A stretch of DNA of 42,846 nucleotides, from NCBI GenBank assembly GCA_020049045.1, contig JAIFLN010000002.1, forward strand, positions 1 to 42,846, in the 5' to 3' direction. Both the position numbers and the translations under genes were made by a program. Source of the stretch: Spirochaetota bacterium (lineage in GTDB: Bacteria; Spirochaetota; Spirochaetia; JABEVK01). Positions 5,498 through 41,923 of this stretch are shown here, one piece after another. The notes beneath the pieces are model-generated. The model had not been told where the DNA came from. It ran no database searches and saw only the letters and a list, made by a program, of their open reading frames with translations. Every line of letters starts with the position of its first letter. The first letter of the stretch is position 1.

Positions 5498-7108
5498 ATG
5501 GCAAATTGGCTGAGCCTTTATGAGAAGGCCGACTACGAGGTTCGAATCAAGGCACGGCTTTTGTCCTTGGTTTTATGGATTATGATTGGGGTTTACGCTG
5601 TTTTCTGTGGACTGTTTGCGGTGTTCAACACCTTCAACGTGGCTTTTGCTGTCTTCCTGGCAAGCCTTCTGGGACTGATTCCTCCACTGGTGTACCTGCG
5701 GAGTGGCCGCTATGATCTGAGCACCCAAATTGCAACACCTTTGCTGCTGTTTGGAATGTGGCTGGGCAATGTCACCAATGATTATACAGGAGACCAGACC
5801 ATTGCCGTAGCAGCGCTCGGTTATGCAGCCATGTTCCTGGTTATGACACTGTTTCTGCGGGGAAAAAACCTTCTCCTGGGTTCTGCCATCTCCATTTTTG
5901 TTTTGTTTCTGATTCAGATCGGCCTCTCCTATACAGACATTGAAGCCACAAAGGCCAACCTCACTTCGGTGGCCGCCGGCCCCACCATCTTTCTACTGGT
6001 GATTTTGGTGTTGGGTATCACCATCCAGCGGGTGTTTCTAACGGTATCCAACGATCTGTTTTCGGAATTGGAGCGGATTGCCGAGGCCCGCCGAAAAAAT
6101 CAGGCGGTGGTGACCAAGGTCGCAGCCAGCCTGGATCAGAGCGACGCCCTGATGGCCAACTCAACGGAAACCGCAGCCTCAACGGTCGAAATCGAACAAA
6201 ATGTCCGGCATATCAAGGAGCGGATTCTCAACCTTGACCAAAGTTTTGGAAATACGGGCAAATCCCTGGAAGCCATCAGCCGGAACCTCGAGACACTCAC
6301 AGACCTGATTCAGAAACAGACCGCCATTGCGGGGACGTCCTCTTCGGCTGTTGAGCAGATGGTGGCCTCTATACAGAATGTTTCGGGAATCATTGAGAAG
6401 CGCGAAGCCGAAGTGCAAGCCCTTGATCAGACCTCACGGGATGGCCAGACCGCGATGGAAGAGACCGTGGAGTCGTTCAAATCGGTGGTCCTGCAGATCG
6501 ACAGCATCAAGGAAATGACCCTGATCATCAAAAAAATCGCATCCCAAACGAACCTTCTGGCCATGAATGCCGCCATTGAGGCAGCCCACGCCGGTGATGC
6601 CGGACGCGGCTTCTCGGTGGTAGCCGACGAAATCCGCAAGTTGGCTGAGTCCAGCACTCAGAGTGCCGGGTCCATCGACCAGAATCTCAAAATTCTTATG
6701 GACTCGCTGAAGGGAACCGGATCAAGGGTCGATGCCTCGGGAAAAGCCTTCGAAAAGGTCAGGCTCAACGTGGAACTGGTTTCCAATGCCATGCACGAAA
6801 TCGCTGCCAGCACGCTGGAAATGAACGCTGGAACCGATGAAATTCTCCGTTCCACCGGCCAGCTGAGCACAGCAACGCAGGGGGTAGAAACCAGTGTGGA
6901 TGAGGTGACCAACGCCTACCGCCAAATTCTGGAAGACATCCGAAAGGTCAGTGAGGTCATCACGGAAATTGCCTCCGGGATGGAAGAAATTGGAACCGGC
7001 ACTACGGATATCCGGCAGGCTGTGGCTGAGATCAGCCGTTTGGCAGAAAGTCTGAAGGAACAGACCGCCGAGTTGAACCAGGCGGCGGCCGATTCCGGAC
7101 AGACCTGA
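5498..7108 (+). CDS. Methyl-accepting chemotaxis protein with multi-spanning membrane input
   Basis: 536 aa. ATG 5498 is preferred over an in-frame TTG six bases earlier because AAGGAGA ends 7 nt before it. The N-terminal ~190 residues contain about six membrane helices and no large periplasmic domain, so the signal is probably sensed within or through the membrane. A long coiled-coil follows, with the conserved hairpin tip [20 protein letters not shown] and then [16 protein letters not shown], which contacts CheA and CheW. No HAMP domain is obvious. The gene is divergent from the LuxR/EAL pair and ends three bases from the convergent aldo/keto reductase gene. Confidence 0.93.
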   Translation: MANWLSLYEKADYEVRIKARLLSLVLWIMIGVYAVFCGLFAVFNTFNVAFAVFLASLLGLIPPLVYLRSGRYDLSTQIATPLLLFGMWLGNVTNDYTGDQTIAVAALGYAAMFLVMTLFLRGKNLLLGSAISIFVLFLIQIGLSYTDIEATKANLTSVAAGPTIFLLVILVLGITIQRVFLTVSNDLFSELERIAEARRKNQAVVTKVAASLDQSDALMANSTETAASTVEIEQNVRHIKERILNLDQSFGNTGKSLEAISRNLETLTDLIQKQTAIAGTSSSAVEQMVASIQNVSGIIEKREAEVQALDQTSRDGQTAMEETVESFKSVVLQIDSIKEMTLIIKKIASQTNLLAMNAAIEAAHAGDAGRGFSVVADEIRKLAESSTQSAGSIDQNLKILMDSLKGTGSRVDASGKAFEKVRLNVELVSNAMHEIAASTLEMNAGTDEILRSTGQLSTATQGVETSVDEVTNAYRQILEDIRKVSEVITEIASGMEEIGTGTTDIRQAVAEISRLAESLKEQTAELNQAAADSGQT

Positions 7109-7111
7109 GCC

Positions 7112-8071
7112 TTAGCTGCGGGATAAAGTATCGATCGTCGCCAGTTCTTCCTTAGTCAGGGTGAACTGGAGGGCTCCGGCAGCTTCCTGGGCGTGTTTGA
7201 CCTTGGTGGCACCGGGAATGGCCACAACGGTATCGCCGTGAAAGCGCACCAGCCAGTTCAAAGCTACCTGGCTGGCACTGGCGTTGTGCTTTTTGGCTGT
7301 CTCCTGTAGAAAGCGGACCAGCGCCTCGGTCTTTTTGAGGCCTTCGGGGTTCAGACCCGAATACTGACGGCGCATAAAGCTGGCAGCTTTCAGAGCCGCA
7401 GGGTCGTCGTGGAAACGGCCCGACAGCAGTCCCTGGGCCAACGGTGAATACGCGATGATAGTGATTCCCAGTTCTTTGGCCACCGCCAACGTGCCATCGG
7501 CCTCGATGGATCGGTCAACCAGGCTGTAGCGAACCTGGTTTGACGCCAGGACCTGGCCCTCTTCCTTCAGAACGCGGTGAAAAGCCCGCATGGCTTCGCC
7601 GCGGAAATTGCTGATGCCGACAGACCGGACCTTATGGTCCTTCAGGAGCCCGGCCAGTGCCAGCGCCTGCTTTTCAATGGAGGAAAGGGAAATGGGCTGG
7701 TGGATCTGCAAAAGGTCGATGGGGTAAGGGGACAAAGCCGCCTGACGGGCGGGGAAGGTTTTACCGATCGAGGCGGCCGTCCGCAGCGCCGGCCACCACT
7801 TGGTGGCAATGACGACCTCACCGGGCTTCACAGCACGGCGGACCAAGGCACCGGCCAGCGCCCTTTCAGAGTTGCCTCCCCCGTAAACTTCGGCAGTGTC
7901 AAACCAGTTGATGCCACCCTCGAGGGCGGCTTTGACGATGTCGTCCATCACCTGAGTTTCGAGAACCGGCCAGAACTTCGACACCAAACCCCTGCCCTGG
8001 CTGAACTGCCAGCAACCCAGGCCAAGGGGGGTAATCTTCACGTCGCTTTTTCCAAGTGTCCTGAGTTCCAT
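7112..8071 (-). CDS. Aldo/keto reductase
   Basis: 319 aa, normal family length, cytosolic NADPH-dependent carbonyl reductase type. The catalytic tetrad is present: Asp58 and Tyr63 in FDTAEVYG, Lys91 in ATKWW and His124 in QIHQP. The C-terminal part has the cofactor-binding pattern AIPGATKVKHAQEAAGAL. The substrate cannot be inferred. CGGAGG lies 5 nt upstream of ATG 8071. It lies 23 bp downstream of the DMT transporter gene on the same strand and could be co-transcribed with it. Confidence 0.92.
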   Translation of the reverse strand: MELRTLGKSDVKITPLGLGCWQFSQGRGLVSKFWPVLETQVMDDIVKAALEGGINWFDTAEVYGGGNSERALAGALVRRAVKPGEVVIATKWWPALRTAASIGKTFPARQAALSPYPIDLLQIHQPISLSSIEKQALALAGLLKDHKVRSVGISNFRGEAMRAFHRVLKEEGQVLASNQVRYSLVDRSIEADGTLAVAKELGITIIAYSPLAQGLLSGRFHDDPAALKAASFMRRQYSGLNPEGLKKTEALVRFLQETAKKHNASASQVALNWLVRFHGDTVVAIPGATKVKHAQEAAGALQFTLTKEELATIDTLSRS

Positions 8072-26765: not shown

Positions 26766-27920
26766 ATGATCTTTCGGTTGGGTGAGCTTTTTTGCGGTCC
26801 AGGAGGAATCGCTCAGGGTGCGGATTTTGCCTCCCGTGCCATGCGTGAAGAAGGATGGGCCATCGACCATGCCTGGGCCACCGACTATCACCCCGAAACC
26901 TGTGAAACCTACCGTGCTAATTTCTTTCCGCAGGACCCCGAACGAGTTGTCTGCGATGACATTCGGACACTTTCGCAGAACTATGAGAAGCTGGAGGCCG
27001 TTTCACCTATTGAAGCGCTGGCTTTCGGTTTCCCGTGCAATGACTTCAGCATGGTCGGCGAACAGAAGGGTATCAACGGAACCTTTGGCCCCCTGTACAC
27101 CTATGCGGAGAAAGCTCTGCGCCATTTCAAACCCCAGTGGTTCCTTGCAGAAAACGTCGGCGGTCTCAGCAGCGCCAATGAGGGAAAGGCCTTCGTCTCG
27201 ATTCTCAAGGCATTCCGAGATTGCGGATACACCCTCGTTCCCCATTACTATAAATTCGAAGATTACGGCGTACCACAGGCAAGGCACCGGATCATCATCA
27301 TCGGCATCCGCGAAGATATCGATGTCACCTACCAGGTTCCTGCTCCTACAATGGTTCGAAAAACCGCCCGGGAAGCCCTGGCAGGGATACCCGACTGGGC
27401 GGCGAACCAGGAACTCACCAAGCAGTCCGCTGGCGTCGTAGACCGCTTGAACCACATCAAGCCCGGGCAGAATGCCTTCAACGCCGATCTTCCTGATCGG
27501 CTGAAGCTCAACGTCAAAGGTGCGAAGATCAGCCAGATCTACAAAAGACTCGATCCGGACAAACCGGCCTATACCGTAACTGGAAGCGGTGGGGGCGGCA
27601 CCCACATCTATCATTGGGCAGAACCAAGAGCGCTGACCAACCGCGAGCGGGCCAGACTCCAGACTTTCTCAGACAGCTTCGTTTTTCAGGGAACCAAAGA
27701 GAGTGTCCGCCGTCAGATCGGCATGGCGGTTCCGCCTGAAGGGGTCCAACACATCTTCGAGGCTGTTTTGAAGTCGTTTGCGGGAATCCCTTACGCTTCC
27801 GTTCCGTCGAACCTTGAAACGCTCAAGGCCCACCCGGGGTATGCCGCCCAGGAAGCAGAACAGCTGATGCTGTTGGAAAAGGCGGCCATCGAGTACGGGC
27901 GAAGAAAGATTGTGGTTTAG
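26766..27920 (+). CDS. DNA (cytosine-5) methyltransferase
   Basis: 384 aa. Motifs in the order expected for a C5 methyltransferase: I, GELFCGPGG (SAM site); IV, FGFPCNDFS (catalytic Cys; PCN instead of the commoner PCQ); VI, FLAENVGGL; VIII, QARHRIIIIG; IX, LTNRERARLQTF; X, QIGMAVPPEGV. The target-recognition region between VIII and IX is short. It protects host DNA from the endonuclease of the next gene (11 bp downstream). A Vsr nuclease follows, as in other C5-methylating systems. GGGGAG precedes ATG 26766. Confidence 0.95.
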   Translation: MIFRLGELFCGPGGIAQGADFASRAMREEGWAIDHAWATDYHPETCETYRANFFPQDPERVVCDDIRTLSQNYEKLEAVSPIEALAFGFPCNDFSMVGEQKGINGTFGPLYTYAEKALRHFKPQWFLAENVGGLSSANEGKAFVSILKAFRDCGYTLVPHYYKFEDYGVPQARHRIIIIGIREDIDVTYQVPAPTMVRKTAREALAGIPDWAANQELTKQSAGVVDRLNHIKPGQNAFNADLPDRLKLNVKGAKISQIYKRLDPDKPAYTVTGSGGGGTHIYHWAEPRALTNRERARLQTFSDSFVFQGTKESVRRQIGMAVPPEGVQHIFEAVLKSFAGIPYASVPSNLETLKAHPGYAAQEAEQLMLLEKAAIEYGRRKIVV

Positions 27921-27931
27921 GCAAGGGCGTA

Positions 27932-29491
27932 ATGATCAACTACTGGTGGGTTACCAGACCAAAGCGAAAACTGACAGAAGTACCTGAAATCCTGGCTCTT
28001 TTTGCAGAAACAGCCCTCCATCAACAATGGACGGGTCAAAGAACAAGGCATCTGGAAATTGAAGAAGCTCTGGAAAGGGAAGGTCTGAAAAGGACCGGTC
28101 AGCGGCGAGATCAGACGGGAGGAGGAGCTAGGACATACAGGGCTTGGATCGAAAGCCTAGGACTGCTGTTCAGACAGGAAGGCACTGGATTATTGCACCT
28201 GACACTCGCAGGTGAAGACATGATGACTGGTAGGTCTCCAGTCGAAATATTGACTGCCCAGGTACTGAAATACCAATTTCCCTCCTCATTCTCGATTTCA
28301 CCTGGTGTAAGGGTGCATGAACGTTTTCGAATTCGGCCGTTCAGATTCCTTCTTCGCCTTCTGGCAGAACCCGGCGTCGAAAGCCTGACTGAAGAGGAAA
28401 TTGCCAAGATCATAGCTGTCGAAGCTGAAGACGAAAGCCAGAAATGTTTTCGCAAAGTAGTTCTCCGTCTGCAAGAATTCCGAGAGCTTGGTGACAAGGC
28501 TCTCGATGCGGACTTTGCCATCCGCTATGCCTCTTCGCGGGGCGGACAAGGCAATACACACCCTCTGAGCCACTTGTTTGACCTGGCAAACACGCTAGTG
28601 AACTGGCTTGAATACACTCAGCTGATCGGCCGTTCAGACGGAAAGATCTTCATCCCCTCGGATAAAAGGGGCGAGGTCGAACGGATCTTGTCATTCACGC
28701 CCTCGTTCATTGATAGACCGGAACATCATGAGTATTTCCAAAGAAAGTTCGGTACTTCGAATGAGCACAAGCGGGATAACAGAGACCTACTAACATCGAC
28801 GCCTGTCTCTACCCGGTTGATTGCGGAAAAGAAAATCCAGCGGATCTTTCTTTCGATGGCGGTTTCGCGGCCGATTCACCGCATTACCAAGGAACTGATC
28901 AATGAGATCGAAAACAAATCAGGGTACCGGAGCGACCTCATTGAGGAGGCTCTTTCGCGAAACCACCCGAGAGGAGCGATTTCTGCTTTCCTTTCTGAAT
29001 ACTACCACATGGCCTATTCGGGACGGGAAAAAGCAACCGACTTTGAGCTTGCGACAGTAACCATTTTCCAGGAGGTTTTCGGTTTCCGAGCCAGGCACGT
29101 CGGGCCGCAGAGACTGAGTCCTGATGTGCTGGTTGTTTCGGAAACTGAAAAGTACACGGCTATTATCGACAACAAGGCTTATTCAGCCTATAGCATTTCA
29201 AACGACCACAGAAACCGGCTTGTCCACAATTACATTCCCAAGTTTCGAAACTACGAAGGCCTTCCCTTGGCCTTCTTCACCTATATTGCGGGCGGCTTTG
29301 GGACGACGGCAACCGGATCCATACAGTCTGTGGCGGCCGAGACAGGCATCCACGGTAGCGGCATTGCTGTCTCAAATCTGATCAGAATGATTGAGACTCA
29401 GGAGAAGAAATCTTACGGACACCGCGCCTTCCGAAGTATTTTCTCTGCTGACAAGGTGATATTGGGTACCGATCTCGATCTTTATGACTGA
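27932..29491 (+). CDS. Type IIS-like restriction endonuclease, AlwI/BstNBI type with FokI-like nuclease
   Basis: 519 aa. The N-terminal half resembles AlwI/BstNBI enzymes: WWVTRPKRKL, a short region on to WTGQ, then ESLGLLF, LLHLTLAGEDMM and LKYQFPS followed by PFRFLLRLLAEPG and LTEEEIAKI. The C-terminal half has a PD-(D/E)xK site like FokI: SPDVLVV (Asp397) and IIDNKAY (Asp413, Lys415), 16 residues apart against 17 in FokI. It should bind a short asymmetric site and cut outside it. Base composition looks less GC-rich than neighbouring genes, suggesting acquisition. It overlaps the vsr gene by 8 bp. Confidence 0.85.
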   Translation: MINYWWVTRPKRKLTEVPEILALFAETALHQQWTGQRTRHLEIEEALEREGLKRTGQRRDQTGGGARTYRAWIESLGLLFRQEGTGLLHLTLAGEDMMTGRSPVEILTAQVLKYQFPSSFSISPGVRVHERFRIRPFRFLLRLLAEPGVESLTEEEIAKIIAVEAEDESQKCFRKVVLRLQEFRELGDKALDADFAIRYASSRGGQGNTHPLSHLFDLANTLVNWLEYTQLIGRSDGKIFIPSDKRGEVERILSFTPSFIDRPEHHEYFQRKFGTSNEHKRDNRDLLTSTPVSTRLIAEKKIQRIFLSMAVSRPIHRITKELINEIENKSGYRSDLIEEALSRNHPRGAISAFLSEYYHMAYSGREKATDFELATVTIFQEVFGFRARHVGPQRLSPDVLVVSETEKYTAIIDNKAYSAYSISNDHRNRLVHNYIPKFRNYEGLPLAFFTYIAGGFGTTATGSIQSVAAETGIHGSGIAVSNLIRMIETQEKKSYGHRAFRSIFSADKVILGTDLDLYD

Positions 29492-29948
29492 CTCCCTTTC
29501 CCCCGCCGCGCGGTCGGCCAACATGGCAGCTATCCGTTCCCTTAACACGGCTCCCGAAATGATGGTCCGCAAGGCGTTGTTCCGGCTCGGCTTCCGGTTC
29601 CGGATTGCACCGAAAAAGATGGTGGGCCGACCCGACATCGTTCTGCCCAAACACAAAGCTGTTGTTTTCATCCACGGATGCTTCTGGCACGGTCACGGGT
29701 GCCCGAAGTACCGGCTCCCTAAGTCAAACACCGGCTTCTGGGCAGAAAAAGTCCACAACAACAAGGTTCGCGACCACAACGACATCGAAGCCCTGCTGGA
29801 ACAGGGCTGGCGGGTAGCCGTCGTTTGGGAATGTGTTGTCAAAGGTCCGAGGAAGGATAACCCGTTGCCAGTGACCATTGAGACATTGCGAGTCTGGCTG
29901 TACAGTTCCGACACGGAACTCGAATTGCCCCGCCCACAGAGGGGGTAG
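29484..29948 (+). CDS. vsr: Very short patch repair (Vsr) endonuclease
   Basis: 154 aa, full length. Family signatures: SANMAAIRSLNTAPEMMVRK, LFRLGFRFRI, GRPDIVLPKHKAVVFIHGCF, WHGHGCPKYRLPKSNTGFW, and a C-terminal GWRVAVVWECVV. Vsr nicks 5' of the T in T:G mismatches produced when 5-methylcytosine deaminates, so it offsets the mutagenic cost of the adjacent C5 methyltransferase. The ATG lies within the end of the endonuclease gene. Confidence 0.95.
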   Translation: MTDSLSPAARSANMAAIRSLNTAPEMMVRKALFRLGFRFRIAPKKMVGRPDIVLPKHKAVVFIHGCFWHGHGCPKYRLPKSNTGFWAEKVHNNKVRDHNDIEALLEQGWRVAVVWECVVKGPRKDNPLPVTIETLRVWLYSSDTELELPRPQRG

Positions 29949-30100: not shown

Positions 30101-30658
30101 GTCATCCAGGCTCCCGGTGGACCAGACGAAGATACCAGCGGAGGCTTCGCTCATGGCGGGTGGATAAGCCCTTATTCCGATGCGGTCCTGGGGACGGCGC
30201 TGAGAGGTCAGATGAACCTGCCGTTTGATCTGTTGTTGGGCCGTAAAACCTACGAGATCTGGGCGCCTTACTGGCCGCAGAATACCGAGGCCTGGCCTGG
30301 CGTCAACACGGCGACCAAGTACGTCGCCTCGAACACCCTGACATCGGCCTCCTGGGAGCCGTCTGTGGTGCTCAGTGGCGATCTTGCCGAAAAAATCACC
30401 CGCCTCAAGCAACAGACAGGACCAGATCTGCACGTCTGGGGAAGCGCCAATCTGGTTCAGACTCTGCTCAAACAGGATTTGGTCGATGTGCTTTGGCTGA
30501 TGATTTATCCCATAACGTTGGGGGCCGGAAAGCGGCTGTTTGCCGGGGACACGGTGCCAAGGGCGTTCACCGTGACACAGAGCATCGTCACACCGAAGGG
30601 CGTCCTGGTGGTGAATTACGAGCGGTCTGGTGCAATCACAGCCGGTGGTCTATCCTGA
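30089..30658 (+). pseudogene. 5'-truncated RibD/DHFR-like reductase family protein
   Basis: The frame reads SLDGVIQAPGGPDED, FAHGGWISPYSDAVL, DLLLGRKTYEIWAPYWP, VVLSGDLAEKI, DLHVWGSANLVQTLL and LIYPITLGAGKRLF, with MIYP preceding; this is the RibD C-terminal/dihydrofolate-reductase-like family (YyaP/YwjB group). The usual first ten residues (a strand like MRKIIVSxFV) are absent: the frame has a TAG at 30068-30070 and no ATG, GTG or TTG before SLDG. The first ATG (30212) would remove the cofactor-site start, and no Shine-Dalgarno supports it. The lost 5' end meets the PIN remnant. A one-base deletion near 30089 with a distant start is a less likely reading. Confidence 0.65.
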
Positions 30659-30662
30659 AGAC

Positions 30663-31070
30663 ATGACACCCGATATCCGCTGGAAACAACGCTTTCAGAA
30701 CTTCGAAAAAGCCTACCGGTTTCTCAGAGCGGCCCTCGACAAACCCCGTCTGAACGAGCTTGAGCGGACCGGAGTCATCCAGGCCTATGAGTTCACCTTC
30801 GAACTGGCTTGGAATACAGCTAAAGACTATTTGAATGCAAGAGGAGTCGAGGCAGCGTTTCCGCGCGATGTCCTGAAGAAAGCCTTTCAGTACGAGCTGG
30901 TGGCCAACGGCGAAGTGTGGATGGACATGCTGGAAAAGCGGAATCTGATGGCCCATTCCTACGATGAAGACCGAGCCCAAACGGCTCTTTCGCTGATCCG
31001 TGACATCTACGAACCGGAGTTTCGCCGCTTGATGGCGACTCTAGCTGTCAAAGGCGAAGTCGGTGAGTGA
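30663..31070 (+). CDS. HEPN toxin (HI0074 / nucleotidyltransferase substrate-binding family)
   Basis: 135 aa, helical. Recognised by FEKAYRFLRAALDKP, GVIQAYEFTFELAWNTAKDY, FPRDVLKKAFQYELV and the RX4H motif in EKRNLMAHSYDE (Arg, His). HEPN proteins of this kind are RNases neutralised by a partner minimal nucleotidyltransferase that AMPylates them. ATG 30663 is chosen over GTG 30630, which lies within the preceding remnant. The next gene overlaps by 8 bp and encodes the partner. Confidence 0.88.
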   Translation: MTPDIRWKQRFQNFEKAYRFLRAALDKPRLNELERTGVIQAYEFTFELAWNTAKDYLNARGVEAAFPRDVLKKAFQYELVANGEVWMDMLEKRNLMAHSYDEDRAQTALSLIRDIYEPEFRRLMATLAVKGEVGE

Positions 31071-31383
31071 TACCTACGGCATTAGGCCGTTTTCTTGGCA
31101 ACGGCTTCAACTGGTGCTCACGGAAACGGCCCAGGTACAGCGCGCCGTGCTGTTCGGCAGCAGAGCCCTGGGCCGCGCCAGGAATGGCAGCGATATTGAC
31201 CTGGTTCTGCAGGGACCCGCTGTGACCGCTAAGGTCGCACTGGACGTTTCAGGCCGGCTTAACGAAAGGGAACCCCTTCCCTACGAGTTTGATGTGCTCA
31301 GCTGGAATACCGTCGAAAGCCCTGAGCTGCGCGATCATGTGGAACGGGTGGGCAAGGTGATTTTCGAACGCGGAAATCCTTAA
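31063..31383 (+). CDS. Minimal nucleotidyltransferase (MNT) antitoxin, HI0073 type
   Basis: 106 aa. The nucleotidyltransferase signature is complete: VLFGSRALGRARNGSDIDLV (GSx10DxD). MNT antitoxins of HEPN/MNT pairs use ATP to AMPylate the toxin. The start is GTG 31063, overlapping the end of the HEPN gene. Together they form a toxin-antitoxin or defence module at the edge of the restriction-modification block. Confidence 0.9.
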   Translation: MSDTYGIRPFSWQRLQLVLTETAQVQRAVLFGSRALGRARNGSDIDLVLQGPAVTAKVALDVSGRLNEREPLPYEFDVLSWNTVESPELRDHVERVGKVIFERGNP

Positions 31384-31455: not shown

Positions 31456-32025
31456 GTGAAAAAACTGCTGTTCAGTGTGGCCCTTGGGCTGTTCGTAATC
31501 CTGAATGTCCCTGCCGCCGACACCCTGCAAGTCCGCTTGCCGTTGACGGTGACCACTCCCTGGTTGGGGGACGATCTCTCCCGGGCCATGCTCGGGTTGG
31601 CCCCGGAGCTGATTTTTGACCAGGTTGGTTTCGGCATCGACGGCAACGTGAGGTTCACCCGCGACAGCAGCCAGTTGTGGAGCATGGACTTCCGCGGCCA
31701 GCTTTTTGCCAGCTACCATTTGTCTGGTGTCGAGTCCCGCTTCGACCCCTTTGTCCTGGCTGGCCTTGGGTCTGCCGGATGGTTGGATCTGAGCAGGGGG
31801 GCTCGAAGCACCAATGCTGTCAACCTTTCGGGAATAGCCCTGGCGCTGGTTCCTTCCATGGGTGCCGGGTTTGCCTTCGACCTGGGCGGGCTGGTGGTGG
31901 GAGCCAGGGTTCTCTGGTTCCCTGCCTCGTGGGATATTCCTGCGGCTCCGATCAATCTGTATCAAAAGTCCCCGACCGAGGTGAGTGTTTTTGTCGCCTG
32001 GGCCCTGGTAGACCACGCTCCGTGA
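31456..32025 (+). CDS. Secreted outer-membrane barrel-like protein, first gene of sigma/caspase operon
   Basis: 189 aa with a signal peptide (about 1-21, ending PAAD). The mature protein alternates short polar and hydrophobic strands (LIFDQVGFGIDGNVRFTRDS, SMDFRGQLFASYHLSG, FDPFVLAGLGSAG, VSVFVAWAL), typical of small beta-barrels of the outer membrane. No named family. The GTG start is supported by GGAGG 5 nt away. Its stop overlaps the sigma-factor start (GTGA at 32022), so it belongs to that operon. Confidence 0.8.
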   Translation: MKKLLFSVALGLFVILNVPAADTLQVRLPLTVTTPWLGDDLSRAMLGLAPELIFDQVGFGIDGNVRFTRDSSQLWSMDFRGQLFASYHLSGVESRFDPFVLAGLGSAGWLDLSRGARSTNAVNLSGIALALVPSMGAGFAFDLGGLVVGARVLWFPASWDIPAAPINLYQKSPTEVSVFVAWALVDHAP

Positions 32026-32501
32026 TCGACATCGAGGCTTTGTTCCGCCGCTATGGACCCATGGTCCATCGCCGATGCCGGTCTTTGCTGGGAGATGAGG
32101 ACCGGGCAGCCGATGCCTGTCAGGAGGTCTTTGTCCGCCTGATTCGGACCGGCGAGCGGTTGGAAGACAAAGGCCTTTGCAGCCTGCTGTTCACCATGGC
32201 CACCCAGCAGAGCCTGAACGTCTTGAGGTCTGAGAAATCTCGCCCCGGCTACACCGGGGGAGAGTTGCTGGACGAGATCGCCTGCCTCGACGACCAGAAC
32301 CGCCTTTTTGCCGCTGATCTGGTGGATAGGATTTTTCGCCGTCACCCCGCCTCGAGCCGCACATTGGCCACCTTGCACTGGGTGGACGGCTTGACCCTTG
32401 AGGAAACGGCGGAGGCGGCTGCCATGTCGGTGTCGGGGGTGCGAAAACGTTTACGAAAACTGAAGGAATCGGGACAACTTCTCAAGGAGGCTTTGTTGTG
32501 A
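32022..32501 (+). CDS. ECF-like sigma factor
   Basis: 159 aa, typical length. Region 2: IEALFRRYGPMVHRRCRSLL, then GDEDRAADACQEVFVRLIR; region 4: RTLATLHWVDGLTLEETAEA, then AAMSVSGVRKRLRKLKE. It would direct RNA polymerase to its own regulon. The start is GTG 32022, overlapping the preceding stop; a longer open frame upstream is antisense-free but lies in the barrel gene and has no sigma similarity. The stop overlaps the next start (GTGA at 32498). Confidence 0.88.
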   Translation: MIDIEALFRRYGPMVHRRCRSLLGDEDRAADACQEVFVRLIRTGERLEDKGLCSLLFTMATQQSLNVLRSEKSRPGYTGGELLDEIACLDDQNRLFAADLVDRIFRRHPASSRTLATLHWVDGLTLEETAEAAAMSVSGVRKRLRKLKESGQLLKEALL

Positions 32502-33208
32502 AACTCAATGCCCTGCGTGCCGAACAGCTCCACTTAGGCGAGTTGCCCGCGAAGGCCGCGGTCAACTGGACAGACGAACAAGCCGCTGAAAGCAAGGCGG
32601 TACTGGATGCCGACGACCGGCTTCACCGCCAAAACTATCCTGCCGAAAAGGCCGCAATGGCTATCCGGTCCCGCTTGCTCACCACAAAAAAGACCACGCG
32701 GCGCGCGGCAACCCTGCAACTGGGTTCCTGGCTGGCGGCGGCTGTTCTGATTGTCGGCGTGGGGGTGAGTCCCGTGCTCGACAACGTTTCGTCTGAAAGA
32801 ACCAAGGGAACCTCGGCTCAAATTGCGGTGTACCGTCAATCGGGAACGGGAGTGGCACGGCTGGCCGATGGGGCCAAGGCCAAAGCCGGAGACCGTCTGC
32901 AGGTCGAGTTTTCCGCCCCTTCTCAAAGCTGGGTACTGGTCTTTTCGGTGGATGGCGGGGGGGTACTGACCTCGCACTATCCGGAACAAGGAATTGCGGC
33001 CTCGCAGTTGACTGGCAACACAACCCTGGTTCCCCAGTCCTATGTGCTCGATGCGGCTCCCTTATTTGAACGATTTTACCTCGTTGTCGGCGACCACCCC
33101 TTTACCCGGGAAGAGGTCTGGCGTACCCTGCGGGATCGTCCGATGGAAGCCCGTCTGCCATCAGGTCTGACAGCGTATCCATTGACGCTGATAAAGGATA
33201 GCAAATGA
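32498..33208 (+). CDS. Membrane-anchored DUF4384-like protein in anti-sigma position
   Basis: 236 aa. Residues 1-75 are cytosolic and polar, one helix spans about 76-94 (LGSWLAAAVLIVGVGVSPVL), and the remainder is extracytoplasmic. The outer part resembles DUF4384: AKAGDRLQVEFSAPSQSWVL, then VFSVDGGGVLTSHYPEQG. Topology and place directly after a sigma factor suggest an anti-sigma factor, but no zinc-finger or other classic anti-sigma motif is seen. The GTG start is preceded by AAGGAGG. Overlaps both neighbours by four bases. Confidence 0.8.
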   Translation: MKLNALRAEQLHLGELPAKAAVNWTDEQAAESKAVLDADDRLHRQNYPAEKAAMAIRSRLLTTKKTTRRAATLQLGSWLAAAVLIVGVGVSPVLDNVSSERTKGTSAQIAVYRQSGTGVARLADGAKAKAGDRLQVEFSAPSQSWVLVFSVDGGGVLTSHYPEQGIAASQLTGNTTLVPQSYVLDAAPLFERFYLVVGDHPFTREEVWRTLRDRPMEARLPSGLTAYPLTLIKDSK

Positions 33209-35097
33209 AAAGGTTGCTTTCACTGGTGTTGTTTTGCAGCCTGCTGACGGCTGCAGGAGCGACAGAACTGCGTCGGTATGCCCTGTTTGTGGGAGCTGAC
33301 AACGGTGGTGCGGGCCGCACTGTCTTACGGTATGCGGTTTCCGATGCGCAAGCTCTCAAGAGAGTTCTCACCGAGCTGGGTGGTCTGACCAGCAACAATT
33401 CCCAGGTGCTGGGAAACCCGGACCGAAACTCGGTGTTGTCCTCGCTGGCCGGGTTTGCACCTCGGATTGCCCAGGGCAAAAAGGCGGGTGACCGCGCCGA
33501 GTTTCTCTTCTACTATTCCGGCCACTCCGACGAAAACGGCTTGCTTCTGGGCAACACCCGCATCGGTTACGGCGAACTGCGCGACGCCCTGGCCAAGGTG
33601 GGGGCCGACGTGCGCCTTGCCGTGCTCGATTCCTGCGCTTCGGGAGCCTTCACCCGGCTGAAGGGCGGCACCAAAAGCGCTCCGTTTTTCCAGGACGAGT
33701 CGGCCTCGCTGGAAGGGCACGCCTACCTCACCTCGTCTTCCGAGAACGAAGCCAGCCAGGAATCCGATAGGATTGGGGGGTCATTTTTCACCCACTACCT
33801 GATTTCGGGCCTGCGGGGCGCCGCTGATGCCACCGGTGACGGGCGGGTGAGCCTGAATGAAGCCTACCGCCACGCCTTTGATGAAACTCTGGCCCGTACC
33901 GAAGACACACAAGCAGGGCCCCAGCATCCTTCGTACGATATTCAGCTTTCAGGTACCGGCGATCTGGTTTTAACCGACTTGACCCGCAGGACCAGCCGCC
34001 TGGTGCTGGCCGCCGATGTGGGCGGTCAGCTGTTTGTTCGGACGGCAACCGGAGCTCTCGTCGCCGAGGTTCGCAAAACTACCGGCGAAGCCCTGACCCT
34101 CGCCGTTCCTGCCGGTATTTACGACGTGGCACTTCAAACCGCTTCAGGCTATGGACTGGCCCGACGCACCGTGGCCGACGGCGAAGTGGTCAACATGGCC
34201 GCCTCAGACCTGGCACTCGGTGCCAAGCAGCCCACCCGTTCCCGTGGAGGGATTGCCGACAGCGCGTATCTTCCGCTCAACTTTGGCTTTACCCCGGGAC
34301 TCGAGCTGTACCCCGGATCTGAGAAGACTACTGCCGTCGCCCTCTACGCCTTGCTATCGGTGGCGGGACATATTCGAGCGGCACAGATTTCGGGGATTGG
34401 GAACATATCCGAGAGCAATACCGGCTTTCAAAGTGCCGGGGTGTTCAACTTGACCCAGTCCAGCCAGGGTTTCCAGTCCGCCGGGGTGTTCAACAAGGCC
34501 GACTCGGTCCGAGGGTTTCAGAGTTCCGGTGTGCTGAACATTGCCGAAGATGTTTCGGGTTTCCAAGTGGCCGGTGTTGTGAACATCGCCCGGGACGTCA
34601 GGGGCTTTCAAATCGGTGTGGTCAACATCGCCCAGCACGTCGATGGCTTTGCCCTTGGCCTGGTGAACATCTCTGACGAAAGCTGGGGCCGGGTCGGGTT
34701 CGATTACGACCAGCGGGGCGGAGCCTGGGCCACCTTCGAATGGGGGGCCGGAGCTCTGAGCAATATCGTGATGATCGCCGAGGAACGGGGTACGGTGGGG
34801 GCAGGCTTGGGTTTGAGTTGGGGAAAAGGAATTCGGCTCGGGACCCAGTTGCTGGCCTTTGTTGACCGTTCTCTGGCGTACCTTGTCCCCGTTACCCCGG
34901 CCCTGCGGTTAGCAGTGAATGCCAAGCTTGGTGTACTGGGGATCCACGCCGGTTGGCTGGGCACAGCCTATTTCCCGGAGTTCACAAGTTCCAACCTGGT
35001 GGGCGGTCCCGGCACAAGCACCACCGACGCCTTTACCTCTGGCTATCCCTGGCATTATACGGGGCGTCTCTTCTTTGGAATGTCAGTGGGGTTCTAG
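33205..35097 (+). CDS. Secreted caspase (C14) with 15-residue surface repeats
   Basis: 630 aa. Signal peptide 1-19. Caspase domain about 22-260: substrate-fold strand RRYALFVGADNGG, catalytic His107 in FYYSGHSDENG and Cys144 in VLDSCASGAF, then GHAYLTSSSENEASQE and GDGRVSLNEAY. Residues 262-340 look beta-rich. Residues 407-490 hold six repeats of 15 residues with the core GFQSAGVFN (407, 422, 437, 452; shortened at 467 and 481), resembling Leptospira LA_2272-type surface repeats. The end looks barrel-like and finishes in SVGF. The enzyme is therefore exported. Overlaps the DUF4384-like gene by four bases (ATGA at 33205). Confidence 0.9.
   Translation: MKRLLSLVLFCSLLTAAGATELRRYALFVGADNGGAGRTVLRYAVSDAQALKRVLTELGGLTSNNSQVLGNPDRNSVLSSLAGFAPRIAQGKKAGDRAEFLFYYSGHSDENGLLLGNTRIGYGELRDALAKVGADVRLAVLDSCASGAFTRLKGGTKSAPFFQDESASLEGHAYLTSSSENEASQESDRIGGSFFTHYLISGLRGAADATGDGRVSLNEAYRHAFDETLARTEDTQAGPQHPSYDIQLSGTGDLVLTDLTRRTSRLVLAADVGGQLFVRTATGALVAEVRKTTGEALTLAVPAGIYDVALQTASGYGLARRTVADGEVVNMAASDLALGAKQPTRSRGGIADSAYLPLNFGFTPGLELYPGSEKTTAVALYALLSVAGHIRAAQISGIGNISESNTGFQSAGVFNLTQSSQGFQSAGVFNKADSVRGFQSSGVLNIAEDVSGFQVAGVVNIARDVRGFQIGVVNIAQHVDGFALGLVNISDESWGRVGFDYDQRGGAWATFEWGAGALSNIVMIAEERGTVGAGLGLSWGKGIRLGTQLLAFVDRSLAYLVPVTPALRLAVNAKLGVLGIHAGWLGTAYFPEFTSSNLVGGPGTSTTDAFTSGYPWHYTGRLFFGMSVGF
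34423..34674 (+). repeat. In-gene 45-bp repeat array (15-residue units)
   Basis: Six units of about 45 bp encode GFQSAGVFN-like motifs, degenerate at DNA level. The first four keep the full motif; the last two read GFQIGVVN and GFALGLVN. Confidence 0.85.
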
Positions 35098-38332: not shown

Positions 38333-38385
38333 CGGATCGGGCGAAAGCCCCTGGTTTTCCCTGTAGGTTGCCTGCAGGAGAGTCC

Positions 38386-39576
38386 ATGAAGCCCCTGTTT
38401 TTTCCCGGAGTCCTGCTCAGCCTTTTCGGCCTGCTAGCCGGTTGTTCCTCCGTCTCGATTCCACCCGTCACCCGCGCCGCGCCCAGCGCGATGTCGTACC
38501 CCATCGTCACCACCTCGTCGTACCGCGACAACGGTGACGGCACCGTCAGCGACCTGGTGACGGGCCTGATGTGGACCAAGAGCCCCGACCTCAATGGCGA
38601 CGGCACGATCAACCTCGCCGACCAGCTTACCCTCGCTCAGGCGCTGAAAAGCATCAGTGGCGTGACGACCGGGGGCCACAGCGACTGGCGCTTGCCGACC
38701 ATCAAGGAGTTGTATTCCTTGATCGATTTCCAGCTGGGAAGGGATGGGCCTCCCGAGGGCCCAGACGCAAGCCCCTTCTGGCCGTTTCTCGATACCCGGT
38801 ACTTCGATTTCGGGTACGGCGACGTGAAGGCAGGCCAGCGGATCATCGACGCTCACGCCGCCACCTCGACGCTCTACGTCGACAAGACCTTCCTGTTCTT
38901 TCAGACCATGTTCGGCGTGAATTTCGCCGACGGCCGGATCAAGGGCTACCCGCTCGCGGTAAACGTGCAGGGCTTTTCGGACACGACGTTCTACGTCTAC
39001 TACGTGCGAGAAAATCCGGCGTATGGGGTCAACGACTTCGTGGCCGCCGACGGCGTCGTTACCGACCGGGCCACGGGTTTGATGTGGGCGCAGGCCGACA
39101 GCGGCAAGGGGATGGACTGGCCCACGGCCCAAGCCTGGACAGAAACCCAAAATGCGCAGAGCTATCTGGGCCACAACGACTGGCGGCTGCCTACCATCAA
39201 GGAACTTCAGAGCATCCTCGACTACACCCGCTCCCCGGCGACGACCCATTCGGCGGCGCTCGACCCTGTCTTCCAGGCCACCAAAATCTCCAACGAGGCT
39301 GGGCAGGAGGACTGGGGCTTCTACTGGTCTTCTACTCCCCACCTGGCCAACGCCGGACCGCCCGGTGACCCGGAAATCGCGTATTTCAGCTTTGGTCGCG
39401 CTATGGGCAAGATGTTCGGCCTTTGGATGGACGTCCACGGCGCCGGTGCCCAGCGAAGCGACCCGCCCACCGGTGACGTCTCTCAATTCAAGGACGGCAA
39501 GGGCCCCCAGGGCGACGCGATCCGAATCCAGAATTTCGTGCGGCTGGTCCGCAATTCCCAGGAGGGAAAATCATGA
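38386..39576 (+). CDS. DUF1566 (Lcl C-terminal domain) lipoprotein 1
   Basis: 396 aa from ATG 38386 with CAGGAG 5 nt upstream. Lipobox LLAGC gives a lipidated Cys in the mature N-terminus. Two DUF1566 modules: first NGDGTVSDLVTGLMWTKSPD and HSDWRLPTIKELYSLIDF; second GVVTDRATGLMWAQADSGKG and HNDWRLPTIKELQSILDYTR. The C-terminus reads DAIRIQNFVRLVRNSQEGKS. DUF1566 has a C-type-lectin-like fold used in surface adhesion in Legionella Lcl. Ligand unknown. The stop overlaps the next start (ATGA). Confidence 0.92.
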   Translation: MKPLFFPGVLLSLFGLLAGCSSVSIPPVTRAAPSAMSYPIVTTSSYRDNGDGTVSDLVTGLMWTKSPDLNGDGTINLADQLTLAQALKSISGVTTGGHSDWRLPTIKELYSLIDFQLGRDGPPEGPDASPFWPFLDTRYFDFGYGDVKAGQRIIDAHAATSTLYVDKTFLFFQTMFGVNFADGRIKGYPLAVNVQGFSDTTFYVYYVRENPAYGVNDFVAADGVVTDRATGLMWAQADSGKGMDWPTAQAWTETQNAQSYLGHNDWRLPTIKELQSILDYTRSPATTHSAALDPVFQATKISNEAGQEDWGFYWSSTPHLANAGPPGDPEIAYFSFGRAMGKMFGLWMDVHGAGAQRSDPPTGDVSQFKDGKGPQGDAIRIQNFVRLVRNSQEGKS

Positions 39577-39586
39577 ACCTGTTCAA
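39502..39586 (+). repeat. 85-bp exact direct repeat, copy A
   Basis: Covers the last codons of lipoprotein 1 (from the codons for GPQGDAIRIQ), the ribosome site AGGAGG, the overlapping start and the first codons of lipoprotein 2. Identical to 40773-40857. Confidence 0.95.
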
Positions 39587-40847
39587 ACTGCTTTTCGTGG
39601 CAAGTGCCGCCCTGCTTGCGGTCGGTTGCGCCACCACCCCGGCCCCGGTGGCCCGCACGGCACCCAGCCCTGGGTCGTACCCCCTCGTCGGCACGGGCCA
39701 GCTCACCTTCTGGGACACCGACGGCAACCAGACGCCGGCCCCCGCCAAGGGCGACGCGCTCTACGGTCAGGATGCCCAGTTTCCCGGCACCGCCCCCAGC
39801 TACCAGAACAATGGCGATGGAACGGTCACCGACAAGGTGACCGGCCTGATGTGGACCCAAACGACCGACCTCAACAAGGACGGCCTGATCAACAAGTCCG
39901 ACAAGCTGACCTACGCCCAGGCCATGCGGAGCGCCGCCAAAGTCACCACGGGCGGCTACGACGACTGGCGTCTGCCCACCATCAAGGAACTGTATTCCTT
40001 GATCCGCTTTGACGGGCAAGAGCCGCGGCCAGAAGACACGGCCGACAGTGTCTCGTCCATGAGCCCCTTTCTCGACCGGTCGGTTTTTGGGTTTGGGTAC
40101 GGCGAAGTGGCGGCGGGTGAGCGCATTATTGACTCCAACTACGCCTCGTCCACGCTTTACGCCGCCAAGACCACCATCATGATGGGTTCGGTCGTGGGCG
40201 AAACTGAGACGATGTTCGGCGTGAACTTTGCCGATGGCCGCATCAAGGGCTATCCCGTCCACCACGGCTTCTACGTGATCTACGTGCGCGGGAGCCTAGC
40301 CTACGGCGTCAACGATTTTCGGGACAACGGCGACGGCACGATCACCGACAACGCCACCGGGTGGATGTGGAGCCAGGCCGACAGCGGCGAGGGCTTGGAC
40401 TGGGCCGCCGCCCTGCAATGGGTGCAGAAGAAAAACGCCGCCAACTACCTGGGACACAGCGACTGGCGCCTGCCGAACATCAAGGAACTCCAGAGTCTGG
40501 TGGACTATTCGCGATCCCCTGCGACCACGTCTTCGGCGGCCATTGACAAGCTGTTTTTGTCGACCGGGATCACGAACGAGGCCGACCAGCCGGACTGGGG
40601 CTGTTATTGGTCATCGACCACCCACCGGGGCATTCAAGGCGAAAAAGCCGCCTATATGGTTTTTGGCCGGGCCATGGGCCTCAAGGGCACCGTTTGGGGT
40701 GACGTGCATGGCGCCGGCGCCCAACGGAGCGACCCCAAGGTCGGCGATGCAACCCAGTTCGTCAATGGCCGTGGCCCCCAGGGCGACGCGATCCGAATCC
40801 AGAATTTCGTGCGGCTGGTCCGCAATTCCCAGGAGGGAAAATCATGA
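39573..40847 (+). CDS. DUF1566 lipoprotein 2
   Basis: 424 aa, lipobox LAVGC after MNLFKLLFVASAALL. Like its neighbour it has two DUF1566 modules (NGDGTVTDKVTGLMWTQTTD, YDDWRLPTIKELYSLIRF; NGDGTITDNATGWMWSQADS, HSDWRLPNIKELQSLVDYSR). A ~30-residue insert after the lipidation region is not found in copy 1. Its first 14 bases and its last 75 are part of an 85-bp exact repeat. It overlaps both neighbours by four bases. Confidence 0.92.
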   Translation: MNLFKLLFVASAALLAVGCATTPAPVARTAPSPGSYPLVGTGQLTFWDTDGNQTPAPAKGDALYGQDAQFPGTAPSYQNNGDGTVTDKVTGLMWTQTTDLNKDGLINKSDKLTYAQAMRSAAKVTTGGYDDWRLPTIKELYSLIRFDGQEPRPEDTADSVSSMSPFLDRSVFGFGYGEVAAGERIIDSNYASSTLYAAKTTIMMGSVVGETETMFGVNFADGRIKGYPVHHGFYVIYVRGSLAYGVNDFRDNGDGTITDNATGWMWSQADSGEGLDWAAALQWVQKKNAANYLGHSDWRLPNIKELQSLVDYSRSPATTSSAAIDKLFLSTGITNEADQPDWGCYWSSTTHRGIQGEKAAYMVFGRAMGLKGTVWGDVHGAGAQRSDPKVGDATQFVNGRGPQGDAIRIQNFVRLVRNSQEGKS

Positions 40848-40857
40848 ACCTGTTCAA
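40773..40857 (+). repeat. 85-bp exact direct repeat, copy B
   Basis: Covers the same positions at the lipoprotein 2 to lipoprotein 3 junction, 1271 bp from copy A. Recombination between copies would remove one gene and leave all reading frames intact. Confidence 0.95.
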
Positions 40858-41923
40858 GATGCTTTTCGTGGCTATTGCCACCCTTCTTGCCGTGGGCTGT
40901 GCCACGGTGAGTGACACGCCCAGCGTCCCCCGGTTGCCCGCTTCAGCGGGCTCGTACCCCCTCGTGGTCGAAAGTTCCTACACCACCAGTGCCGACGGCC
41001 TGAGTGTGAAGGACAATGTGACCGGCCTCACCTGGCAGAAAACCTACGAGTTGGGCGACAGGGGCGCGGTGTCCTGGGTCGAGATCCAGGCCAAGGTCGA
41101 CGCGATGAACGCCCAGAAGGTCGGCGGGTTCAGCGACTGGCGCGCGCCCACCATCAAGGAACTCTACTCGGGGTGGCCCTACCTCGACACAGAAGCCTTT
41201 CCACTCACCTATGACAACGAGCAGGCCCTGAGCCACAAGATCTTTCTGAGCAGCACCAAATACACCAGCACCATCGCCGGGTCTGAACTGGCGTTTGGCG
41301 TTAACTTCGGCACCGGCCACATCAAGGCCTATGCCACCAAAGACGGCCCCCGTCACTTCTTCCGCGCTGTCCGGGGCAACCTGGCCTACGGCGTGAACCT
41401 GTTTCAGGACAACAAAGACGGCACCGTGACCGACGCGGCGACCGGCCTCATGTGGCAGCAACAGGACGGGGCCGTGGCCATGGACTTTCCCGCCGCCAAG
41501 GCGTACGCCGAAGCCCAGAACAAAGCGAACTCTTTCGGCCACAACGATTGGCGCTTGCCGACGAGCATGGAACTGCAGACCCTGGTGGACTACACCCGTT
41601 CCCCCGGCGCTACCGACCCGGCCCACGTCGGACCGGCCATCGACCCGCTGTTCACCTGCACCCCCATCACCAACGAGGCCGGACGGGCCGACTACCCCTA
41701 CTACTGGACCAGCGTTCCCGCCAAGGGGAGTGCAGATGGGCCGTACTCGGCGGCGTGGTACGTCGCCTTTGGCCGAGCGGTCAATGAAAATGGCGAGGAC
41801 TTGCACGGCGCCGGAGCCATCCGCTTTGACTCGACCATGGCTGCCACCGAGCCCGGAGCCAAGGATGCCGAGCGGGTGCTGAACTTTGTGCGGTTGGTCC
41901 GCACTTCCCCGGAGGGAAAATGA
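40844..41923 (+). CDS. DUF1566 lipoprotein 3
   Basis: 359 aa, lipobox LAVGC after MNLFKMLFVAIATLL, nearly identical to lipoprotein 2 in its first 20 residues. Two DUF1566 modules (LSVKDNVTGLTWQKTYELGD, FSDWRAPTIKELYSGW; DGTVTDAATGLMWQQQDG, HNDWRLPTSMELQTLVDYTR). The first module is shorter than in copies 1 and 2. C-terminus NFVRLVRTSPEGK. The stop overlaps the barrel-like gene (ATGA at 41920). Confidence 0.92.
   Translation: MNLFKMLFVAIATLLAVGCATVSDTPSVPRLPASAGSYPLVVESSYTTSADGLSVKDNVTGLTWQKTYELGDRGAVSWVEIQAKVDAMNAQKVGGFSDWRAPTIKELYSGWPYLDTEAFPLTYDNEQALSHKIFLSSTKYTSTIAGSELAFGVNFGTGHIKAYATKDGPRHFFRAVRGNLAYGVNLFQDNKDGTVTDAATGLMWQQQDGAVAMDFPAAKAYAEAQNKANSFGHNDWRLPTSMELQTLVDYTRSPGATDPAHVGPAIDPLFTCTPITNEAGRADYPYYWTSVPAKGSADGPYSAAWYVAFGRAVNENGEDLHGAGAIRFDSTMAATEPGAKDAERVLNFVRLVRTSPEGK

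Follow-up and report, generated by a model that had tools for sequence, protein, structure and literature searches.

We analysed a 42,846-nucleotide stretch of DNA from a Spirochaetota bacterium (assembly GCA_020049045.1, contig JAIFLN010000002.1), referred to here as the window, which is one contig of a 3.97 Mb genome. The locus under study is a four-gene operon that encodes a small exported barrel-like protein, an extracytoplasmic function (ECF) sigma factor, a candidate anti-sigma factor with one transmembrane (TM) helix, referred to below as the TM protein, and an exported caspase (Table 1). The genes overlap by GTGA at the barrel-like/sigma junction, GTGA at the sigma/TM-protein junction and ATGA at the TM-protein/caspase junction, a layout that the initial annotation had described and that our analysis confirmed for every open reading frame and its position.

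Table 1. Features of the sigma/anti-sigma/caspase operon in the window.
Feature	Position	Strand	Basis
Predicted sigma-dependent promoter GTAACA-N16-GTGTT, 39 nt before first start codon	31390..31416	+	Dyad count; genome match
Small exported barrel-like protein, 189 aa, GTG start, operon gene 1	31456..32025	+	L073 homologue in same position
ECF sigma factor, 159 aa, GTG start, regions 2 and 4	32022..32501	+	Sigma70_r2, TIGR02937
Candidate anti-sigma factor, 236 aa, GTG start: helical cytoplasmic domain, one TM helix, linker, DUF4384-like periplasmic domain	32498..33208	+	
Cytoplasmic anti-sigma domain (predicted), helices 2–12, 18–21, 26–46, 49–71	32498..32713	+	AlphaFold2 model
Transmembrane helix, residues ~75–93	32720..32776	+	Hydropathy; single TM across family
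Predicted cleavage site R101-T-K103-G104 in periplasmic linker of TM protein	32798..32809	+	Conservation
Exported caspase, 630 aa, ATG start	33205..35097	+	Peptidase_C14 E=4.6e-10; signal peptide
Caspase domain, residues 22–258, His107, Cys144, S1 residues D47 and D142	33268..33978	+	PDB fold and sequence matches
Predicted self-processing site R151-L-K153-G154 after catalytic Cys of caspase	33655..33666	+	Conservation
Beta-sandwich domain between caspase and barrel, residues 265–331	33997..34197	+	AlphaFold2 model
Predicted outer-membrane beta-barrel, ~16 long strands, Phe at end	34327..35091	+	AlphaFold2 model; weak fold matches

The sigma factor matched Pfam Sigma70_r2 (E=1.2e-12) and NCBIfam TIGR02937 (57.5 bits against a cut-off of 42.9). 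It is composed of regions 2 and 4 only, the latter by a weak match, which is the architecture of ECF sigma factors. The product of the first gene gave no match in a Pfam scan.

The three genes for the sigma factor, TM protein and caspase constitute a conserved module. When the caspase domain was searched against 393 genomes of the phylum, 58 other loci were identified at E <1e-65, followed by a gap to distant caspases, and at all 58 the sigma factor and TM-protein genes are located directly upstream of the caspase gene on the same strand; two other genomes in the small family of the window's organism show the same gene order. With start codons chosen by rule, the gap between the sigma factor and TM-protein genes is at most 30 nt at 54 of the 58 loci, and that between the TM-protein and caspase genes at most 35 nt at 55 of 56. 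The 58 loci include L060 (4772–5391; one-contig genome G315), where an internal deletion in the sigma/TM-protein pair took sigma region 4 and the anti-sigma N-terminus and the caspase gene is still open. A profile of the TM protein gave 63 strong matches in the same 393 genomes versus 62 caspase matches; members of the caspase clade and of the TM-protein family occur as one-to-one pairs, all of them adjacent except for three matches cut by contig ends. None of 22 caspases from outside the clade, used as controls, has an adjacent sigma gene, and no convincing TM-protein gene was found with them, the one weak match (E=7.6e-4) being on the opposite strand of L211.

A scan of ~85,000 named genomes returned more than 500 relatives, the best 80 of which come from Spirochaetota, Myxococcota, Acidobacteriota, Aminicenantes, Fermentibacteria, Chitinispirillaceae and Gemmatimonadetes records. 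Across several phyla, both partners lie immediately upstream of 118 of 127 distinct caspases, and the remaining caspases are mostly cut by contig ends or rearranged. Two of these loci (L131 and L174) keep the anti-sigma gene, with no sigma gene found beside it, and the apparent exceptions L166 and L179 are rearranged loci with separate promoter copies. An apparent sigma/anti-sigma fusion in L144 was rejected because it spans a run of N in the contig. The initial annotation had proposed a circuit in which the caspase acts outside the cytoplasm to free the sigma factor, and had made it depend on conservation of the gene order in relatives, a check that it withstood.

Flanking genes are not conserved, with the biggest common neighbour family occurring at 8 of the 58 loci, and the conserved unit therefore consists of the three genes. 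The barrel-like first gene, counted in the initial annotation as part of the operon, is indeed present in the window, but its sequence is conserved only in L073, from another genus of the same family, and it is a variable addition; other small exported barrel-like genes occupy its place in some relatives. Separately, we observed a TonB-receptor-like gene downstream of the module in L076, L082, L089, L090 and L092, and in L076, L089, L090 and L092 the next gene shares a family with the ExbB-like protein of L074.

Proteins of the TM-protein family have one TM helix preceded by a cytoplasmic domain of 58–109 residues. The AlphaFold2 model of the window's protein contains four helices before the TM helix, a low-confidence region at residues 74–102 (predicted local distance difference test score below 50) and a beta domain from residue 108. 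This N-terminal part corresponds to the four-helix ASDI domain of class I anti-sigma factors, in which a fourth helix accompanies a three-helix bundle and zinc may be present or absent (PMC7406223). Residues E9 and E15 are kept in 115 of the 118–119 aligned proteins, and many residues of the beta domain are invariant. According to the initial annotation this protein lacks a known anti-sigma motif; that holds for the window's protein, in which a Pfam scan identified neither zf-HC2 nor FecR, but not for its relatives in L094 and L095, where zf-HC2 scored above the curated cut-off of 22.2 (25.3 bits at residues 3–36, and 25.2 bits, respectively). Based on the single TM helix, the four-helix model and these two zinc fingers, we conclude that the TM protein very probably acts as anti-sigma factor to the adjoining sigma factor, to which it would bind.

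The periplasmic domain is termed DUF4384-like because the match of the window's protein to DUF4384 (PF14326; E=0.0044) falls short of the cut-off, at 17.5 against 27 bits; 35 of 58 relatives match this family at E up to 0.1. Weaker matches to the TM-protein profile in other proteins of the phylum mostly cover the N-terminal part and the TM helix. A fold search with the anti-sigma model returned only weak beta-sandwich matches, such as RhoGDI, and was uninformative. At L247 (2493–4040, minus-strand coordinates) we observed two tandem exported DUF4384-like proteins with no anti-sigma domain, caspase or R-x-K-G motif.

The best PDB matches to the caspase domain, by both fold and sequence, are solved caspases and metacaspases. 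The residues of its His-Cys dyad, already recognised in the initial annotation, are invariant among the aligned relatives (H107 in 127/127, C144 in 126/126). The signal peptide and surface-type repeats reported there were also recovered: the former is present on the window caspase and nearly all of its relatives, and the latter are of the LA_2272 type and score just below the cut-off. The match to the EACC1-associated caspase family NF047832 reached 67.5 bits against a cut-off of 140. Residues D47 (125/126) and D142 (127/127) are likewise conserved and align with metacaspases. In T. brucei MCA2, the aspartates Asp95 and Asp211 line the S1 pocket and accommodate basic residues, and metacaspases cleave after arginine or lysine (PMC4357240, PMC6426788). 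Since D47 and D142 align with these two aspartates, we predict that the caspase cleaves on the C-terminal side of Lys or Arg.

In the full model of the caspase, residues 375–629 form ~16 long antiparallel strands, and outer-membrane barrels appear among the weak further fold matches (E from 0.02). In many of the relatives, the C-terminal residue is hydrophobic or aromatic and lies in a G-x-x-F-like context. From the model, the caspase appears to be tethered to the outer membrane, and we infer that its protease domain is located in the periplasm. With such an anchor, the protease would share a compartment with the anti-sigma linker; this would resolve a puzzle left by the initial annotation, which had separated the protease from the sigma factor; the caspase and the DUF4384-like domain are now predicted to lie together in the periplasm.

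The TM protein and the caspase share an R-x-K-G motif. Among 121 aligned TM proteins, K103 is invariant, and R101 and G104 are found in 115 and 119, respectively, whereas the linker columns preceding the motif are near random. The caspase motif is conserved as well (n=127; R151 in 114, K153 in 126, G154 in 127); it lies nine residues past the catalytic Cys, in a low-confidence loop of the model, with K153 located 10 residues past the strand that corresponds to beta4. In animal caspases, the processing site lies ~14 residues after beta4 (PMC4357240). R-x-K-G was found after the Cys in none of the 22 out-of-clade caspases and is missing from three DUF4384-like homologues that have no caspase. 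Both proteins are thus predicted to offer a K-G bond in a flexible segment, matching the predicted Lys/Arg specificity, and we propose the motif in the linker as a candidate cleavage site and that in the caspase as a candidate self-activation site. In L253 (2799–4091, genome G354) we identified a decayed copy of the module: the caspase is interrupted ahead of the catalytic Cys, and in place of R-x-K-G the anti-sigma factor has G-V-K-G. This fits with the proposed role of the motif, but the locus is decaying in general.

For the promoter search, spaced pairs of 4-mers were counted upstream of the sigma genes and compared with shuffles. TGAC-18-TGTT occurred in 34 of 118 regions, against a maximum of 12 for any pair in the shuffles, and exact TRACA-N16-GTGTT, with fixed spacing, in ~55 of 119 upstream regions versus 1–3 in shuffles. 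A matrix trained on these sites placed 99/119 regions above a 2% shuffle threshold, a count that is partly circular. A bipartite promoter motif, GTRACA-N16-GTGTT, precedes most of the module operons, including that of the window. The site is usually 40–80 nt before the sigma gene; it lies 630–1090 nt upstream in the window, L042, L044, L051, L073 and others, and in the window, L042, L044 and L073 it directly precedes an extra small exported barrel-like gene.

Copies of this promoter were also identified away from the module. The unlinked caspases of L166, L175 and L179 have their own copy, and other copies precede a TonB-dependent receptor gene in L179 and L240 and an orthologous pair of exported barrel-like proteins in two genomes (L239 and L243). 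Based on these positions, the regulon appears to comprise the module itself and outer-membrane proteins. An additional copy in L166 (minus strand, ~6531–7889) stands before an exported LA_2272-repeat protein, with no caspase domain in the part seen.

The near-constant gene linkage and the presence of R-x-K-G in both proteins suggest that the caspase activates a switch by cutting the anti-sigma factor. With moderate confidence, we favour the reading that the operon is a one-way proteolytic envelope switch, with an outer-membrane-anchored caspase as the site-1 protease of a sigma/anti-sigma pair. The class-I-like anti-sigma factor would hold the ECF sigma factor at the inner membrane, and the caspase would be exported, its C-terminal barrel fixing it to the outer membrane and its protease domain lying in the periplasm. 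The caspase would be activated by a signal from the outer membrane, which may be the state of the barrel, probably through self-cleavage after K153, and would then cut the anti-sigma factor after K103 in the periplasmic linker. An RseP-type intramembrane protease and cytoplasmic proteases would subsequently degrade the stub and release the sigma factor, which may transcribe its own operon from GTRACA-N16-GTGTT and, in relatives, outer-membrane barrel and TonB-receptor genes as well. The genome of the window encodes an RseP homologue (Peptidase_M50, E=7.4e-54), and the combination of a one-TM anti-sigma factor with a genomic site-2 protease is that of regulated intramembrane proteolysis. The circuit of the initial annotation is therefore supported in outline by gene order, the common motif, the zinc finger, the predicted outer-membrane anchor and the promoter, with cleavage as a predicted step. 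Its choice of substrate, the DUF4384-like domain or the barrel protein, was only partly retained: the barrel protein is set aside, and the likely point of attack is the linker that precedes the DUF4384-like domain.

Several observations weigh against this reading. The barrel assignment comes from a single predicted model, and the membrane side of the caspase domain is one that we infer. AKKG occurs near the same position in many out-of-clade caspases, so the K-G of the caspase loop may predate the link with the sigma factor. In the TM protein, R-x-K-G adjoins the folded domain, the first strand of which begins at residue 108, and K103-G104 might therefore be conserved for structure. The arginine changed jointly in the caspase and anti-sigma factor of L091 and L156, but the general coupling was not significant (P=0.11). 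In an analysis of mutual information between sigma and anti-sigma sequences (118 pairs, effective number 66), the top pairs were not enriched in the cytoplasmic domain. Lastly, the window's genome contains three exact promoter matches versus two in the control, and only the operon site stands out; no further regulon member is therefore claimed in this genome.

Alternatively, the caspase could be an output of the sigma factor, with another site-1 protease of the DegS/HtrA type cutting the anti-sigma factor and the induced caspase acting on envelope or outside proteins. Operon position alone would suit a target gene, and the caspase does fall within the predicted regulon and, where it is unlinked, has a separate copy of the promoter. 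We nevertheless consider this unlikely: other regulon genes vary, whereas an ordinary target would hardly keep a one-to-one linkage in every genome, and the motif common to both proteins would be left unexplained. Less likely still, R-x-K-G could serve as a docking or pseudosubstrate element, such that the DUF4384-like domain inhibits the caspase, the anti-sigma factor restrains both caspase and sigma factor, and a signal separates them without cleavage. The position of the motif at the very border of the folded domain and the many invariant beta-domain residues, as in a binding surface, are compatible with this model, but the motif lies in a low-confidence linker and agrees with the predicted P1 preference, and its occurrence in the caspase loop is more simply explained by self-processing. 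It is very improbable that the module, like EACC or CHAT systems, serves cell death or defence with the caspase as its executioner, since the caspase fold, a weak PADLOC ‘caspase’ match, the sub-threshold EACC1 match and the existence of caspase-ECF neighbourhoods in such systems (PMC8195603) are set against an exported and predicted barrel-anchored caspase, mostly one module copy per genome in a conserved place, a common promoter with outer-membrane-type targets, and loci with no defence neighbours in common.

The genes surrounding the operon in the window include an overlapping nucleotidyltransferase and HepT-like substrate-binding pair of the MNT/HepT toxin-antitoxin type, which lies immediately before the promoter (30630–31383), an apparent restriction-modification set composed of a C5-cytosine methylase, a nuclease with a FokI-type cleavage domain and an overlapping Vsr endonuclease (26766–29948), and three successive, slightly overlapping genes with Lcl_C domains (38368–41923).

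Returning to the proteolytic switch, the wider proposal is that barrel-fused caspases form a widespread class of dedicated site-1 proteases that cut the anti-sigma factor and themselves at R-x-K|G and report on the outer membrane; we regard the chances for and against this generalisation as evenly balanced. Natural substrates of bacterial caspase homologues are largely unknown, and this cross-phylum clade supplies a candidate substrate together with a residue-level candidate cleavage site, a candidate self-activation site and a reporter-ready promoter. If the switch operates as proposed, exported bacterial caspases would gain a conserved natural substrate, and caspase-fold proteolysis would take part in ordinary trans-envelope gene regulation of spirochaetes, myxobacteria and Acidobacteriota, in parallel to DegS-RseA.

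Among known systems, FecI-FecR-FecA combines an outer-membrane barrel that has a periplasmic N-terminal domain with a one-TM sigma regulator and an ECF sigma factor; FecA transmits its signal by contact and lacks a protease domain. The module resembles this system in the predicted barrel, the one-TM regulator and the ECF sigma factor and differs from it in the protease. Links between caspase-type proteins and sigma factors have been described previously. In a 2012 survey, metacaspase operons of Myxococcus, Anaeromyxobacter, Haliangium, Sorangium, Ralstonia and Fibrobacter were reported to contain sigma-70 genes (PMC3501461), a linkage that probably overlaps with the present family, although the relevant section of that survey describes no anti-sigma factor, common motif, promoter, barrel or mechanism. 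The ECF54 group also has CHAT/caspase-type protease genes near the ECF sigma gene but is proposed to act without an anti-sigma factor (PMC8999054), and TRADD-N neighbourhoods represent another kind of link between caspase-type domains and ECF factors (PMC8195603). In our literature search, which did not extend to the main ECF classification, where a group name may exist, we found the anti-sigma factor, common motif, promoter and barrel nowhere described.

In the type III-E CRISPR system Csx29-Csx30-CASP-sigma, a caspase-fold (CHAT) protease likewise cuts the inhibitor of an ECF-like sigma factor, but that system is cytoplasmic and RNA-triggered and features no TM anti-sigma factor, export or barrel (PMC10028731). 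Neither Cas7-11 nor a TPR-CHAT protease was found among the neighbouring genes scanned with Pfam, a subset of those in the window, and the only conserved neighbours of the caspase are the sigma and anti-sigma genes. The E. coli RpoE-RseA/DegS/RseP system (PMC8103513) is similar to the module in its ECF sigma factor, one-TM anti-sigma factor and first cut in the periplasm, which in the module is predicted, as well as in the genomic RseP homologue, the outer-membrane-related targets and the predicted autoregulation. In contrast to RpoE-RseA, the candidate protease of the module is itself an operon gene product and pairs one to one with its partners, and the module contains no RseB gene. Whereas DegS is an inner-membrane serine protease, this candidate site-1 protease is a cysteine protease that has a caspase fold and is joined to a predicted outer-membrane barrel.

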